From Streptomyces humicola (GTDB taxonomy: Bacteria; Actinomycetota; Actinomycetes; Streptomycetales; Streptomycetaceae), in contig NZ_JANFNG010000008.1 of NCBI RefSeq assembly GCF_024436035.1, forward strand, positions 62,001 through 126,000: a stretch of DNA of 64,000 nt, in the 5' to 3' direction. The notes under the pieces were generated by a model. That model did not search any database and was not told the origin of the DNA. It saw only the letters and a program-made list of their open reading frames with translations. Position 1 is the stretch's first letter. Every line of letters starts with the position of its first letter. This document shows, one piece after another, positions 50,617 through 58,327 of the stretch. Position numbers and translations under genes: made by a program.

Positions 50617-52566
50617 CTACTGGAACTCGACGGGCAGATTGGCCGACGGGGTTCCCGTCGGCGGGACCTGCAGCGATTTCAGGGCGAATTCCATCACCTG
50701 CTTGAAGACGGGCCCGCAGATGCTGCCGCCGAAGTGGCTGCCGACGGTGGGGTTCTGGATCACGCAGGAGATGGTCACGCGCGGGTCGTCGGCCGGGGCG
50801 AACCCCATGAACGAGGAGGTGTAGCCACGGTACGTCCCGGTGGCCGGGTCCACCCGGTTGGCCGTGCCGGTCTTGCCCGCGACGTTGTAGCCGTCGATCC
50901 GGGCCGAGATGCCGGTGCCCTCCTCGTTGCCGACCACGGACTCCAGCATCTGCGCCACCGCCTTGGCCGTCTGCTCGCTGACCACACGCCGCTCCGGCGG
51001 CGCCGGGGCCGGCGTGTACTGGCCGTCCGGGCCGACGGAGCCCTTGACCAGGCTCGGCTGGATCCGCACGCCCCCGTTGGCGATTGTCGAGTAGATCGAG
51101 GTGGCCTGCAGTGCGTTCACGGACAGGCCCTGACCGAAGGGGATGGTGTACTGCTGCGAATCGCTCCAGTCCTTGGGCTTCGCCAGGATGCCGGGGGTCT
51201 CGCCGGGGAAGTTCAGGCCGGTCGGCTGCCCGATCCCGAACTTCCGCAGATAGGAGTAGAGCACCTGGTTGGCCTGGGGCTGGGTGGGGCCGAGTTCGCC
51301 GGTGGCCTCGATGGTGCCGATGTTGCTGGACTTGGCGAGCACTCCGTTGAGGGTGAGGTCCCAGGTGCCGTGGTCGACGTCGTCGTGGAAGACATGGTCG
51401 CCGCGCTGGAGGGTGCCGGGGACGACGACGTGGGTCTCGGGGGTGGCGACGCCCTGGTTGATGATGGCGGACATCGACATCAGCTTGCTGACGCTGCCGG
51501 GCTCGTAGGCGTCCTGCACCGCAGCGTTGCCGAAGGCGGACGGGTCGGCGTGCGCGATGTCGTTGGGGTCGAAGCTGGGGGCGTCGGCCATGGCGAGGAT
51601 CTGGCCGGTGCGCGGGTCCTGGACGACGACGTAGCCGCGGTCCGCGTGAGACGCCTTCACCTGGGCGGTGATCGCGCTCTGCGCGGCCCACTGGATGTTG
51701 CGGTCGATGGTGAGCTCGACGGTGCTGCCGGGCACGGGGGGCTTCTCCTGGCCGCCCGCGGTGGGGATCAGCTCGCCGCCGGACTGGGCGTAGGTGGCCT
51801 GGCCGGGCTGCCCCGCGAGTTCGCTGTTGAGCTCCTCCTCGAGCCCTCCCACGCCCTGGCCCTCGCCGTTGACGAATCCGATGACGGCTGCGGCCAGGTC
51901 GCCGTTGGGGTAGATGCGCTTGCTGGTGCTCTGCGCGATGATCCCGGCGAGCAGGCCGGGCGCGCCGCGCTGGGCCGCCTGCTCGGAGAGGGTGTTCTTC
52001 AGCTGCTTGATCCGGTCCCAGGCCTGCGGGGACTGGGCGCGGGCGAGCACGACATAGCGGGAGTCGGGGGTCGACAGCTGCCTGGCGATGGTGTCCTGGT
52101 CGCCGCCGATGATCGGGGCGAGCAGGCGTGCAGCCTGCTGCGGGGCGTCGCCGACCTTGGACTGGCCGGGGGTGAACAGGTAGGGGTCGGCAGTGATGTC
52201 GTATGCGTCGACGCTGGTGGCGAGAGGGGTGCCGTTGCGGTCGGTGATGTCGCCGCGCTTGGCCGGGAGTTCGATCGGCTGGTAGCGGTTGAGGTCGGCC
52301 TTGGCGGCGTACGCGGAGGCGTCGACCACCTGGACCTGGAAGAGCCGAGTGGTGAAGGCCGCGAGGACAAGCGTGAGCAGGGCGCTGACCAGGCGCAGGC
52401 GCGGCCGCGGCCGTCCCAGGCGCAGCGCGGGCTGCCCGCCGCCGGGGCGGCCGCGCGCCGGGGTGCGCGGGGGGTGGCCGCCGGGTTGCGGTCGGCCGGT
52501 TCCTCCCCGCCGCGGGCCCGCGGGACGCGGTACCTCGCCGCGTCCCGGCCGCTGCTGATCACTCAT
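50617..52566 (-). CDS. ftsI: Septal transpeptidase FtsI (PBP3 class)
   Basis: FtsI cross-links septal peptidoglycan with FtsW. The 649-residue class B penicillin-binding protein has a long basic Pro/Gly/Arg-rich N-terminus (1-58), one membrane anchor (about 59-76), a dimerisation domain and the transpeptidase domain with SVSK (catalytic Ser358), SSN (413-415) and KTGT (565-568). ATG 52566 follows GGAAGGTGAGG. It is followed by a 69-base gap before murE. Confidence 0.97.
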   Translation of the reverse strand: MSDQQRPGRGEVPRPAGPRRGGTGRPQPGGHPPRTPARGRPGGGQPALRLGRPRPRLRLVSALLTLVLAAFTTRLFQVQVVDASAYAAKADLNRYQPIELPAKRGDITDRNGTPLATSVDAYDITADPYLFTPGQSKVGDAPQQAARLLAPIIGGDQDTIARQLSTPDSRYVVLARAQSPQAWDRIKQLKNTLSEQAAQRGAPGLLAGIIAQSTSKRIYPNGDLAAAVIGFVNGEGQGVGGLEEELNSELAGQPGQATYAQSGGELIPTAGGQEKPPVPGSTVELTIDRNIQWAAQSAITAQVKASHADRGYVVVQDPRTGQILAMADAPSFDPNDIAHADPSAFGNAAVQDAYEPGSVSKLMSMSAIINQGVATPETHVVVPGTLQRGDHVFHDDVDHGTWDLTLNGVLAKSSNIGTIEATGELGPTQPQANQVLYSYLRKFGIGQPTGLNFPGETPGILAKPKDWSDSQQYTIPFGQGLSVNALQATSIYSTIANGGVRIQPSLVKGSVGPDGQYTPAPAPPERRVVSEQTAKAVAQMLESVVGNEEGTGISARIDGYNVAGKTGTANRVDPATGTYRGYTSSFMGFAPADDPRVTISCVIQNPTVGSHFGGSICGPVFKQVMEFALKSLQVPPTGTPSANLPVEFQ

Positions 52567-52575
52567 GCGCGTGCC

Positions 52576-53160
52576 TCACCTTCCGGTGGTCTCGCCGGTG
52601 GTCGTGGAGGTCAGGGAGCCGGTGCCGGTGCCGGTGCCGCTCAGGGTCCCGGTGCCGGTGGCGTCCGTGTGGGCGGCGGCCGGGTCCGGCCGGCCGGCCG
52701 ATGCGTAGTCCGTCGGCTGGTCGGTGGGCGCGGGGGCCTCTGACGGCATCGGTGAGGGTTCAGCGGGACCGGCCGGGGACGGCGCGCCCGGCTGTGGGGT
52801 GGCGGACGAACTGGGCGGCGCCGGTACGCCGCGCACCTTGCCGTCGGGGCTCAGGAAGGCCGGGTTGCCACCCGGCACCATGCCGAGCTGCCGGGCCCGC
52901 TGTTCCAGGGTCTCCGGCGCGGAGAGCCGGTCGACGTCCTGTTGCAGGGCCTGCTCCTCGTCGGTGCTGGCCTTGGTCTGCTGCTGCAGCTTGGAGAGCT
53001 GGAAGGCGCCCTGGTTGATGGCGGAATTGAGCAGCAGCAGGGTTACCAGGCCACCGGAGAGCAGGACGACGACGAGCAGGACGAACGGGGTGCGTGCCGC
53101 GTTCGAGGAGCGGGTGGTCATCAGACGGCCGGCGCCCGGGCGACCGGTTCTCGCGGTCAT
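52576..53160 (-). CDS. ftsL: FtsL-like division protein
   Basis: A 194-residue bitopic protein with a membrane helix (about 25-45), a heptad region ([20 protein letters not shown]) typical of FtsL/DivIC, and the block [11 protein letters not shown]. The long extracellular tail (about 110-194) is Pro/Ser/Thr-rich and ends in Gly-Thr repeats. FtsL bridges FtsQ and FtsI/FtsW. The start overlaps the rsmH stop (ATGA). An internal ATG (residue 14) is possible. Confidence 0.88.
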
Positions 53161-54116
53161 GACGTGTCCTCACGGATGCGTTCTGCGGCGCGCAGGCGGG
53201 CAGGGGCGGCCCGCCGGTTGGCGGCGACCTCCTCGTCCGTCGGCAGCTCGGCGCCGCGGGTCAGCAGCTTCAGCCTCGGCTGGTAGCGCTCGGGCACGAC
53301 AGGCAGTCCGGGCGGTGCGGTGTTGCTCGCGCCGGCCGCGAAGACCTGCTTGACCAGGCGGTCCTCCAGCGAGTGGTACGACAGGACGGCGATGCGACCG
53401 TGCACGGCGAGCGCGGCGACGGCGGCGGGGATCGCCCGTTCGAGCACCGCGAGCTCACCGTTGACCTCAATGCGCAACGCCTGGAATGTACGCTTTGCCG
53501 GGTTTCCGCCGGTGCGCTTGGCGGCCTGCGGGAGGGCGCCGCGGATCAGTTCGACGAGCCGGGCACTGTTGGTGAACGGTTCCCTCTCCCGCTCCCTGAC
53601 GATCGCCTCGACGATCTTGCGCGCGTACTTCTCCTCGCCGTAGGTGCGCAGCACGCGCACCAGGTCACCGGGCGGATAGGTGTTGAGCACCTCGGCCGCG
53701 CTGATCCCCACATCCTGGTTCATCCGCATGTCGAGGGGGGCGTCCTGGGCGTAGGCGAAGCCGCGCTCGGCCTCGTCGAGCTGCATGGAGGAGACGCCGA
53801 GGTCGAACAGGACGCCCTGCACCTTCGGGACGGACAGCCGCTCGAGCACCTCGGGCAGCTCGTCGTAGACGGCGTGGACGAGGGTGGCCCGCTCGCCGTA
53901 CGGCGCGAGCCGCTCCCCCGCCAGCTTCAGCGCGGCCGCGTCCCGGTCGATGGCGATCAGCCGAGCCGCGGGGAAGGTGGCGAGCAGGGCCTCACTGTGG
54001 CCACCGAGCCCGAGTGTCGCGTCGACGACGACGGCACCCGGCTCGGCGAGTGCGGGCGCGAGCAGGTCGAGGCAGCGCTCGAGCATGACGGGGACATGTC
54101 GAGCTTCCACCGTCAC
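53157..54116 (-). CDS. rsmH: 16S rRNA (cytosine(1402)-N4)-methyltransferase
   Basis: RsmH (MraW) methylates N4 of C1402 in 16S rRNA. It shows [14 protein letters not shown] at the N-terminus, the SAM loop [32 protein letters not shown] and [14 protein letters not shown] 54116 (319 residues) has GGGAGGGGG close upstream; GTG 54110 and ATG 54143 are alternatives. It begins the ATGA-coupled run rsmH-ftsL and follows mraZ by about 300 bases. Confidence 0.95.
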
Positions 54117-54370
54117 CGCCCCCTCCCGGCCTCGCCGGGCCACTGCCGCGGCGGCACGGGCCGCGACTGCACGGATGGAACGTAACGGGTGGTGCTCATG
54201 TGGGCCCTCTGGTCGGGGGCGGCTGGACGTACCGCCGGGTCCCCACCCGCTCGGAAGGGGAAGCAGCCATCTGGTGCCGGGGAAGGTGCACCAGCGGACC
54301 GGGGAGCGGGAGGAGGCCTGGCGTCACGTACGCGCCGCGTGGGCGTGCTCGCTGCGGGTCGGGATCAGGC

Positions 54371-54407
54371 GTCGGATGTCGGAGTCGGATGTCAGTCGTC
54401 GGTTGTC
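54371..54407. repeat. Three decamer repeats between mraZ and rsmH
   Basis: GTCGGATGTC at 54371-54380 and 54384-54393, and GTCGGTTGTC at 54398-54407, spaced 13-14 bases apart, just downstream of the mraZ stop. They could be a protein site or part of the rsmH leader. Confidence 0.6.
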
Positions 54408-54415
54408 GGGCGAAG

Positions 54416-54847
54416 TCACAGTATTCCGGGCAGCACCTCCTGCGACAGCGCCGAGAAGGTCTCCTCCTGGGCGGCGAGATAGCGCTCCCAGGCGGCCACG
54501 TCCCACACCTCCACGCGGCGGCCGGCGCCGATGACCGCGCAGTCGCGGTCGAGCCCGGCGTACTCGCGCAGGTTCTGCGGGACGGAGATGCGGCCCTGCT
54601 TGTCCGGGACCTCGTCGCTCGCCCCCGCGAACAGCACCCGCATGTAGTCGCGTGCCGCCTTGGAGGTCAAAGGGGCCTGACGCAGCTGCTCGGTCAACGA
54701 CCTGAACTCGGTCAACGACCATATGCACAGGCAGCGTTCCTGCCCCTTGGTGATGACCAGGCCGTCGGCGAGTTGCTCGCGGAACTTCGCGGGCAGGACC
54801 AGACGGTTCTTCTCGTCGAGCCGAGGCGCGTACGTCCCGAGGAACAT
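54416..54847 (-). CDS. mraZ: Transcriptional regulator MraZ
   Basis: MraZ is a ring-forming, AbrB-like repressor of the dcw cluster. The 143-residue protein has two SpoVT/AbrB-like repeats: [20 protein letters not shown] and the second with [18 protein letters not shown]. Both carry the DxxGR-like DNA-binding turns. I chose ATG 54847 because GGGAGG lies about 6 bases upstream; a GTG two codons earlier overlaps that site. Its own promoter region carries four GTGG boxes. Confidence 0.95.
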
Positions 54848-54921
54848 CCGCACCTCCCGCGGTCATCCGCCACGACCGGCCACAGACTGGCCACAACAGC
54901 TCGCTGGGGGCATCTCGCCTC

Positions 54922-54961
54922 CCACTTCGCGCCACTTTACTCCACCGCACCCCACCGTCAA
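54922..54961 (-). promoter_or_regulatory. mraZ promoter with four phased GTGG boxes
   Basis: On the minus strand, -35 TTGACG (54961-54956) and -10 TAAAGT (54939-54934) are 16 bases apart. GTGG occurs at 54922-54925, 54932-54935, 54942-54945 and 54952-54955, exactly every 10 bp, two boxes inside the promoter spacer, one overlapping the -10 box and one just after it. MraZ of other bacteria binds such TGGGN repeats spaced by five bases, so this is a likely autoregulatory operator. Confidence 0.7.
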
Positions 54962-55247
54962 TCAGCCACAGCACCCTCACACGGCCGACGCCGGGCAAGA
55001 AAGCGCAGGCCAGAGGGGTGGTCGTGGCTCCGTCCTGGCGCGCACCGGCGCGGCGACGACCACATCGTGCGCCCCATGCGCGCTCCTCGACGCCAGGGAG
55101 CCGACCCCGGGGCGGAAAAGCACTCGTTCGGCCCGTCATGCGTCCCACCTGTGGGTTAGCTCACAGGCTGGGTGATTGACGTCCTTTGGCGGAGATTGAC
55201 CGCGCTCCCGTCGGTTGTCCCACGGAGACATCACGCCAGCCGCCGTC
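54962..55247. other. Intergenic region between mraZ and the carbonic anhydrase gene
   Basis: No credible gene. An inverted repeat CCTGTG/CACAGG at 55148-55167 and two ATTGAC hexamers at 55175-55180 and 55195-55200 are the only structures seen; they may belong to the control region of the carbonic anhydrase gene. Confidence 0.5.
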
Positions 55248-55253
55248 TACCGT
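55248..55253 (+). promoter_or_regulatory. Possible -10 box for a leaderless carbonic anhydrase mRNA
   Basis: TACCGT ends 6 bases before the ATG at 55260, and no Shine-Dalgarno sequence is present, which suggests transcription starts at or next to the start codon. Confidence 0.4.
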
Positions 55254-55259
55254 CGAATC

Positions 55260-55793
55260 ATGCCGATAACCGCGCCCCAGCCCCCCGAGCCCGCAACCGG
55301 TTCCGTCACAGACCGGCTCGTCGACGCCAACCGGCGCTACGCGGCCGCCTTCCACGACCCGGGCATGGATGCCCGCCCGGTGCTGAAGGTCGCCGTCGTC
55401 GCCTGCATGGACGCCCGTATCGACCTGCATGCGGCGCTCGGACTCGAACTCGGCGACTGCCACACCATCCGCAACGCCGGCGGCGTCGTCACCGACGACA
55501 CCATCCGTTCCCTGACCATCAGCCAGCGGGCCCTCGGCACGCGGTCCGTCGTGCTGATCCATCACACCGGCTGCGGTCTGCAGACGATCACCGAGGACTT
55601 CCGCACCGAACTCGAACACGAGGTGGGTCAGCGCCCGACCTGGGCGGTCGAGGCCTTCACCGACGTCGACCAGGACGTACGTCAGTCCATGGCGCGCGTT
55701 CGCACCTCCCCGTTCCTCGCGCACACGGACGACGTCCGCGGATTCGTGTTCGACGTCCACACCGGGTTGCTCCGGGAAATCACGGCCCAGTAA
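55260..55793 (+). CDS. Beta-class carbonic anhydrase
   Basis: The enzyme interconverts CO2 and bicarbonate with Zn. The 177-residue protein has the beta-CA motifs ACMDARID with Zn-ligand Cys49 and the Asp51-Arg53 pair, and IHHTGCG with His102 and Cys105 as the other ligands. The length matches the small mycobacterial Rv1284-type enzymes. I chose ATG 55260 over an upstream frame because the conserved domain begins soon after. The gene stands between mraZ (divergent) and moxR. Confidence 0.92.
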   Translation: MPITAPQPPEPATGSVTDRLVDANRRYAAAFHDPGMDARPVLKVAVVACMDARIDLHAALGLELGDCHTIRNAGGVVTDDTIRSLTISQRALGTRSVVLIHHTGCGLQTITEDFRTELEHEVGQRPTWAVEAFTDVDQDVRQSMARVRTSPFLAHTDDVRGFVFDVHTGLLREITAQ

Positions 55794-55976
55794 CGGAAGC
55801 CCGGTGACGCGGGCCCCGGCGTGAGGGGAGAATGCAACGAGCGACACCGGCTTCCCCGGTGCGCGACATCGGGGAGGGCCGGTCCTCGGGATGCGATGCG
55901 ACAGGCCCTGTTGTGAGAGCCGCAGGCTTGAGCCTCAGTGCGAGAGCCGAAGGCTCCAAGGGCCTAGGAGGGCCGG

Positions 55977-56975
55977 GTGACCACCTACGAATCGCGAGCG
56001 AGCCTCGGCGATCTGACCACCACGGCGGCGCGTGTGCGGCGCAGCGTGGAGAATGTGATCGAGGGCAAGCCCGAGGTCGTACGGCTTTCGCTGACCGTGC
56101 TGCTCGCGGAGGGCCATCTGCTGATCGAGGACGTGCCGGGCGTGGGCAAGACCATGCTCGCCAAGGCACTTGCGCGGTCCATCGACTGCTCGGTGCGCCG
56201 GATCCAGTTCACGCCGGATCTGCTCCCCTCCGACATCACCGGGGTCAGCGTCTTCGACCAGCAGCGGCGGGACTTCGAGTTCAAGCCGGGTGCCGTCTTC
56301 GCGCAGATCGTCGTCGGTGACGAGATCAACCGCGCTTCACCGAAGACGCAGTCTGCGCTGCTGGAGTCGATGGAGGAGCGCCAGGTCACCGTCGACGGCG
56401 CCACGCACGTACTGCCCAGTCCCTTCATGGTGATCGCCACGCAGAACCCGGTGGAGATGGAGGGTACCTACCCGCTCCCCGAGGCACAGCGCGACCGCTT
56501 CATGGCACGAGTGTCGATCGGCTATCCCAGCCCGGACGCCGAGTTGCAGATGCTGGACGTGCACGGCGGCGCCGATCCGCTGGACGACCTGCAGCCGGTC
56601 GCGCACGCACACGAGATCGTCAAGCTGATCGAGGCGGTGCGGGCAGTCCATGTGGCCCCCGCGGTACGGCGGTATGCGGTGGATCTGGTGGGTGCGACCC
56701 GCGACCATCCGGATGTGCGGCTGGGGGCCTCACCGCGAGCGACGCTGCACCTGGTGCGGGCGGCACGCGCGGCCGCCGCGCTCGACGGGCGGGAGTTCGT
56801 GCTGCCCGACGACATCCAGGCGCTGGCGTCCTCCGTGCTGGCGCACCGGCTGCTCCCCACCGCGCAGGCCCAGTTGAACCGGCGTACGCCGGAGCAAGTG
56901 GTCGCGGAGATCGTCAAGCGCACGCACGTTCCTGATCCTTACGGGGGACGGCAGCCCGGGGTCCGGGGGCTGTGA
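55977..56975 (+). CDS. MoxR family AAA+ ATPase
   Basis: A 332-residue AAA+ ATPase with Walker A PGVGKT (54-59), Walker B VVGDEINRA (112-120), the sensor 1 region ATQNPVEMEGTYPLPEAQ and the C-terminal lid. MoxR proteins act as chaperones for metal insertion or complex assembly, usually beside DUF58 proteins, as here. GTG 55977 has GGAGGG upstream. It overlaps the DUF58 gene at TGATG. Confidence 0.94.
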   Translation: MTTYESRASLGDLTTTAARVRRSVENVIEGKPEVVRLSLTVLLAEGHLLIEDVPGVGKTMLAKALARSIDCSVRRIQFTPDLLPSDITGVSVFDQQRRDFEFKPGAVFAQIVVGDEINRASPKTQSALLESMEERQVTVDGATHVLPSPFMVIATQNPVEMEGTYPLPEAQRDRFMARVSIGYPSPDAELQMLDVHGGADPLDDLQPVAHAHEIVKLIEAVRAVHVAPAVRRYAVDLVGATRDHPDVRLGASPRATLHLVRAARAAAALDGREFVLPDDIQALASSVLAHRLLPTAQAQLNRRTPEQVVAEIVKRTHVPDPYGGRQPGVRGL

Positions 56976-58327
56976 TGGAGCCCTCACCGGGGGCGGGCGA
57001 CGAGGGGTTCCGGCGGGCGCTCGGCGGACTCACTACGCGGGGGCGCTCGTTCATCGCGGCCGGGCTCGCGGCCGGGGCGTGCGCCTACGTCCTTGGGCAG
57101 CAGGATCTGCTGCGGGTCGGGCTGTTGCTCGCCGCGCTGCCGCTGGTCTGCGTGGCCGTGCTCTGCCGGACCCGCTACCGCGTGGCCGGCAACCGCAGGC
57201 TCAGCCCCTCGCGGGTGCCGGCGATGGCGGAGGCGCGGGTGCATGTGCGCGTCGACAACGTCTCCCGCCTCTCGACCGGTCTGCTGATGCTGCAGGACCG
57301 GGTGCCGTACGTGCTCGGACCGCGGCCGCGGTTCATGCTCGACCGCGTGGAACCTGGCGGACACCGGGAGGTCTCCTACCGCGTGCGGTCCGATCTGCGC
57401 GGACGGTATCCGCTGGGGCCGCTGCAGCTGCGGCTCACCGACCCGTTCGGGATGTGCGAGCTGACGCGCTCGTTCGCCGCGCGGGACACGCTCACCGTGG
57501 TGCCGCGGATCGAGACGCTGCCCCCCGTCCGGCTGGCGGGCGAGGCGTCCGGCTACGGCGACAGCCGCCAGCGGGCGCTGGCGCTCGCCGGCGAGGACGA
57601 CGTGATCCCGCGCGGCTACCGGCACGGTGACGACCTGCGGCGCGTCCACTGGCGATCGACGGCGCGGTACGGCGAGTTGATGGTGCGCCGCGAGGAGCAG
57701 CCGCATCGCGCGCGCTGCACCGTTCTGCTCGACACCCGACGCATCGCCTATCACGGGGCGGGCCCGGATTCGGCGTTCGAATGGGCGGTCACCGGCGCCG
57801 CGTCGGCGGCCGTGCACATGCTCGAACGCGGCTACGCCGCACGGCTGTTGACGGACAACGGCACATTGGTGCCGGGCCAGGACGGTACGACCGGCGGCTT
57901 CGGCGGGGATTCCTCGGAGGCGTCGGGGCTGCTGCTGGAGGCGTTGGCCGTCGTCGACCACTCGGACGGGGGAACCCTGACACCGGCGCACGACGTGCTG
58001 CGCGGCGGGAACGAGGGACTGCTCGTGGCGTTCCTCGGGGAACTCGACGACGAGCAGGCAGCAATCGTCGGGCGGATGCGGCAGCGCACGGGCGGCGCCG
58101 TGGCCTTCCTCCTCGACGGGCGCGAGGACGGCGCCGCGGTGCAGCGGCCCTTGCGGATGCTGCGCGAGGCGGGCTGGACGGCGCTCCCGGTGCGGCCGGG
58201 GGATCTTCTGGCCGATCTGTGGCGCCAGGCGGACCGCCAGCCCGACCAGCAGTCCGCCCGGGCCCGGGCCCGGCAGTCCGGAGCCCACGAGGCGATGACG
58301 CGCGAGGGAACAGGGGCCGGACTGTGA
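56975..58327 (+). CDS. DUF58 domain membrane protein
   Basis: A 450-residue protein with two N-terminal membrane segments (about 25-45 and 48-63), then a beta-rich region and the DUF58 block DVIPRGYRHGDDLRRVHWRS, followed by a von Willebrand A-like fold. It likely works with the MoxR ATPase and the downstream transglutaminase-like protein. Either GTG 56972 or ATG 56975 could start it; both overlap the moxR stop. Confidence 0.92.
   Translation: MEPSPGAGDEGFRRALGGLTTRGRSFIAAGLAAGACAYVLGQQDLLRVGLLLAALPLVCVAVLCRTRYRVAGNRRLSPSRVPAMAEARVHVRVDNVSRLSTGLLMLQDRVPYVLGPRPRFMLDRVEPGGHREVSYRVRSDLRGRYPLGPLQLRLTDPFGMCELTRSFAARDTLTVVPRIETLPPVRLAGEASGYGDSRQRALALAGEDDVIPRGYRHGDDLRRVHWRSTARYGELMVRREEQPHRARCTVLLDTRRIAYHGAGPDSAFEWAVTGAASAAVHMLERGYAARLLTDNGTLVPGQDGTTGGFGGDSSEASGLLLEALAVVDHSDGGTLTPAHDVLRGGNEGLLVAFLGELDDEQAAIVGRMRQRTGGAVAFLLDGREDGAAVQRPLRMLREAGWTALPVRPGDLLADLWRQADRQPDQQSARARARQSGAHEAMTREGTGAGL

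Follow-up and report, generated by a model that had tools for sequence, protein, structure and literature searches.

The window, by which we mean the whole analysed stretch of 64,000 nucleotides, carries on its minus strand the head of a dcw cluster in the usual order, with mraZ followed on the same strand by rsmH (mraW), ftsL and a gene for a class B penicillin-binding protein (Table 1). The mraZ product contains two tandem MraZ domains scoring above the curated cut-offs, with a DXXXR motif in each (DEKNR at residue 11 and DKQGR at residue 82), and solved structures of MraZ proteins match its residues 1–130. This is the only MraZ gene of the genome; a cognate MraZ, as expected of an MraZ operator, is encoded in the same genome. 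The gap between mraZ and rsmH (54117–54415) is about 300 bp long vs 1 bp in E. coli; neither an Rfam match nor an intrinsic terminator was found in it. An explanation at the RNA level was considered and rejected: the interval 52000–57000 contains no Rfam family, and the leader has no advantage in folding over shuffled sequences (z = −0.71).

Upstream of mraZ the minus strand reads TTGAC-G-GTGG-GGTGCG-GTGG-AGTAAA-GTGG-CGCGAA-GTGG. Re-reading of this strand reproduced the four GTGG starts given in the preliminary description (54955, 54945, 54935 and 54925) and their exact 10-bp spacing. The last box lies 74 bp upstream of the mraZ start. The promoter proposed in the same description, TTGACG-16-TAAAGT, is the only σ70-like promoter found between 53900 and 55300, the corresponding number in shuffled sequences being 0.0. 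The boxes had been assigned to the spacer and the −10 hexamer, which is correct for box 2 and box 3, respectively; to this we add that box 1 abuts the −35 hexamer and that box 4 falls on the expected transcription start site, as positioned from the −10 hexamer. Both the direct GTGG/TGGG repeats with a 10-bp period and their location inside the mraZ promoter at the head of the dcw cluster are as expected of an MraZ operator.

Table 1. Genes, promoter elements and putative MraZ boxes at the mraZ locus. Intact boxes (GTGG) were counted in promoters of mraZ-bearing family genomes (n = 28) and in promoters of two groups lacking mraZ, Streptomyces/g9 (n = 88) and the g3/g4/g11 clade (n = 12).
Feature	Coordinates	Strand	Evidence
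mraZ, 143 aa, two MraZ domains	54416..54847	-	PF02381, E = 1.3e-39, two stretches; TIGR00242, 129.7 bits (cut-off 98.35)
rsmH (mraW), next dcw gene	53157..54116	-	TIGR00006, 305.9 bits; PF01795
ftsL	52576..53160	-	NF053549 (FtsL_Actino), 107.1 bits
Class B penicillin-binding protein, ftsI position of the dcw cluster	50617..52566	-	PF00905, PF03717
−35 hexamer TTGACG, mraZ/dcw promoter	54956..54961	-	Promoter scan
−10 hexamer TAAAGT, 16-bp spacer	54934..54939	-	Promoter scan
Putative MraZ box 1 (GTGG), adjoins −35	54952..54955	-	Intact in 28/28 with mraZ; 0/88 and 0/12 without
Putative MraZ box 2 (GTGG), within the spacer	54942..54945	-	Intact in 28/28 with mraZ; 85/88 and 12/12 without
Putative MraZ box 3 (GTGG), overlaps −10	54932..54935	-	Intact in 28/28 with mraZ; 16/88 and 2/12 without
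Putative MraZ box 4 (GTGG), expected start site	54922..54925	-	Intact in 20/28 with mraZ; 24/88 and 0/12 without

Conservation of the boxes in genomes with mraZ

Since named Streptomyces fall inside the family of the studied organism on the tree, this family is Streptomycetaceae. The host had been called a streptomycete, which holds at the family level; its genus is other than Streptomyces and is represented by two genomes in our sample. Among the 61 sampled genomes of the family, 28 contain mraZ, and in all 28, belonging to 10 genera, the phased array and the same promoter are found upstream of this gene. The TGAC of the −35 hexamer is kept in 26 of these promoters and the TA...T of the −10 hexamer in every one, while box 4, where it is not GTGG, reads ATGG.

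In the class as a whole, MraZ was found in 131 of the 148 sampled genomes. The regions of 300 bp upstream of mraZ in 89 actinomycete genomes outside the family contain 219 GTGG pairs spaced by 10 bp vs 2.8 expected from dinucleotide shuffles. At least three consecutive boxes with a period of 10 bp are present in 67 of these genomes, and with periods of 6–9 or 11–16 bp, in none of the 89. The outcome that would have spoken against the preliminary description, boxes not conserved or not phased in related species, was looked for and did not come about in the genomes with mraZ. The actinomycete consensus is TTGAC-n-GTGGnG-nnAA-GTGGAG-TAnA-GTGGnG-Cnn-AGTGGnG. The unit is GTGGnG, the sixth-position G being present in 95–98% of sequences in boxes 1 to 3 and in 79% in box 4. 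A fifth box, further upstream, is seen in some relatives (loci L026, L043, L049, L057, L228, L255 and others); it reads GTGG or TGG, immediately precedes TTGAC and overlaps the −35 hexamer.

The 7.07-Mb genome contains a single copy of the exact four-box pattern, with a chance expectation from base composition alone of approximately 0.02–0.1 by our own rough estimate. A sequence-only profile of the operator was then built from 46 operators, the window's own site among them. When the genome was searched with this profile, the site in the mraZ promoter scored best (E = 4.1e-10, such E-values being rough) and the next match had E = 0.62. Hence the profile revealed no second convincing operator that would indicate a regulon, nothing else falling below E = 0.6; as it takes in the promoter hexamers, it could overlook sites elsewhere that have fewer boxes. 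Within the family, the profile yielded E ≤ 1.6e-6 in 28 of 28 genomes with mraZ, whereas 33 of 33 genomes without it gave either no match or weak relics, the best at 3e-5.

A run of GTGG words might arise by chance in G-rich DNA, given that the genome is GC-rich and single words of this kind are common in it. This explanation is refuted by the class-wide conservation at a period of 10 bp and at no other period, as well as by the arrays found throughout the mraZ-bearing genomes of the family, and its probability is practically nil.

Fate of the boxes in genomes without mraZ

The mraZ gene, otherwise nearly universal in the class, has been lost at least twice in Streptomycetaceae. It is absent from the sampled genera g3, g4, g9, g10, g11, g14 and g15, of which g9 is Streptomyces according to its position on the tree; all ten sampled Streptomyces genomes lack mraZ. 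Nor does mraZ stand beside rsmH in the 79 named loci fetched by rsmH (bar one unclassified metagenome bin), which are labelled Streptomyces except for one labelled Kitasatospora aureofaciens. The alignment of mraZ upstream regions across Streptomyces, proposed earlier as a check, is therefore impossible as such.

In the genomes without mraZ the same promoter precedes rsmH, and 100 such promoters were aligned (Table 1). The box counts do not include genera g14 and g15, in which a search with the consensus gave no convincing relic promoter. The promoter itself is retained, with the TA...T of the −10 hexamer kept in 100 and the TGAC of the −35 hexamer in 96 of the 100 sequences. Box 1 is lost in all of them, i.e. 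in 88 of 88 Streptomyces/g9 and in 12 of 12 g3/g4/g11 promoters. Box 3 is lost in 72 and 10 promoters of these groups, respectively, mostly by a change of GTGG to GTGA. Box 2 remains intact in 97 of the 100 promoters; boxes 2–4 are all retained in about 14 Streptomyces. In Streptomyces without mraZ (loci L090–L107 and L121–L199), the region upstream of rsmH is nearly invariant in box 2 (GTGGA) and in the sequence flanking the −10 hexamer, TAAAGTGRCGCGA.

On the RsmH tree the genomes lacking mraZ do not form one clade (AU test, p = 0.005). The loss of box 1 accompanies the loss of mraZ in both of two independent pairs; the sign test on this co-loss gives p = 0.5 and has low power, since with only two independent losses it cannot reach significance, and the counts over many Streptomyces do not represent independent events. 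The decay of the boxes in genomes without mraZ was not foreseen in the preliminary description and is the strongest support for an MraZ operator.

The retention of box 2 in the absence of mraZ and of boxes 2–4 in some Streptomyces means that a part of the site is constrained independently of MraZ, perhaps because it is a promoter element or is bound by a different factor. The boxes as a whole could then be ascribed to a different regulator of the division cluster, linked to mraZ by neighbourhood only. In Dietzia, for example, the mraZ promoter is bound by MtrA (PMC9602371), and the conservation of box 2 and the −10 region where mraZ is missing fits such a regulator. However, boxes 1, 3 and 4 decay specifically in genomes without mraZ, in which the promoter and rsmH remain, and the same GTGGnG unit is present in E. 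coli, a member of a different phylum; hence we regard this explanation as very unlikely.

Returning to MraZ, we consider it probable that its operator is ancestral to actinomycetes, that Streptomyces and, separately, at least one other clade of Streptomycetaceae deleted mraZ and kept the promoter, and that the division cluster of these bacteria escaped MraZ control. The remnant, consisting of box 2 and the −10 flank, may now work in the promoter or be used by a different factor. Streptomyces, with their unusual and developmentally timed division, have lost MraZ yet kept the promoter, and this natural experiment makes the link between the loss of MraZ control and the Streptomyces mode of division testable.

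Proposed autorepression and comparison with known MraZ systems

Judging from the sequence data, MraZ almost certainly binds the boxes and controls its own operon through them. In the complete form of this reading, to which we assign a probability of about 0.92, the four boxes would be the operator of the MraZ encoded downstream, and MraZ would repress the mraZ-rsmH-ftsL-ftsI dcw operon in a negative loop. The MraZ operator over the mraZ promoter suggested by the preliminary description is thus supported by the conservation of the boxes in 10-bp phase, by the match in E. coli and by the box decay in the absence of mraZ. With a spacing of approximately one helical turn (10 bp), the four GTGGnG units would all be on the same side of the DNA, and we propose that they are contacted by an MraZ oligomer. 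Bound MraZ would cover the DNA from just after the −35 hexamer to the start site, and therefore RNA polymerase could not load onto the core promoter. Such steric autorepression, blocking the whole core promoter, is the simplest account of how the operon would be repressed.

Eraso et al. are said to have described, in 2014, an MraZ operator upstream of mraZ in E. coli. The mraZ promoter of E. coli MG1655, AGTGGGAAAT-TGTGGGGCAA-AGTGGGAATA, matches with 21 bits and has the same unit, period and register as the actinomycete consensus. In both systems GTGG(G) boxes recur every 10 bp upstream of mraZ, the gene that opens the dcw operon. They differ in that the window contains four full boxes, with the GTGGnG unit and a fixed register relative to the −35 and −10 hexamers, whereas in MG1655 three boxes are clear and the fourth is weaker. 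In Corynebacterium glutamicum, MraZ reportedly acts on ftsEX (Maeda et al., 2016), which makes it a likely parallel as an actinomycete MraZ repressing division; in the genome studied here, however, no phased boxes were found within 400 bp upstream of ftsE.

In Burkholderia cenocepacia, putative MraZ repeats are located within the dcw promoter (PMC7761207), a likeness in location. As quoted from Fisunov et al. 2016 in PMC8475190, the mollicute MraZ site consists of direct repeats of AAAGTG[T/G]. Going by this quotation, AAAGTGG (box 3) and GAAGTGG (box 4) fit the repeat word and the sites share their location in the mraZ promoter, while the actinomycete boxes, with their GTGGnG core, would be a GC-rich version. 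The sole site with AAAGTG[T/G] repeats in Mycoplasma genitalium is that in the mraZ promoter, and the MraZ of this bacterium is a repressor of its own cluster (PMC8475190).

For E. coli and mollicutes, such MraZ operators are already known. A literature search, with key subscription papers beyond its reach, yielded no paper on an actinomycete MraZ operator. What appears to be new is the class-wide actinomycete form of the putative operator and its decay in Streptomyces; the MraZ operator would be extended to actinomycetes, in which its consensus and register are clear.

Finally, G-rich repeats such as these may form a promoter G-quadruplex, as proposed for mraZ of Staphylococcus aureus, and a 2025 study reports conserved G-tracts forming G-quadruplexes in mraZ promoters (PMC11796246). 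A quadruplex needs neither the T within GTGG nor an exact spacing of 10 bp, and yet both are conserved; two of the four tracts at this promoter (boxes 2 and 3) are only GG, and the boxes decay once mraZ is lost. The segment 54921–54955 does not contain four G-runs of three or more residues separated by short loops, a definition outside which two-tetrad forms lie. We therefore consider the quadruplex explanation extremely improbable. Recognition by MraZ offers a simpler reading of the mraZ-promoter G-tracts proposed as a G-quadruplex drug target. In E. coli and actinomycetes, G-tracts of the kind read as a G-quadruplex in PMC11796246 fall on the MraZ boxes.
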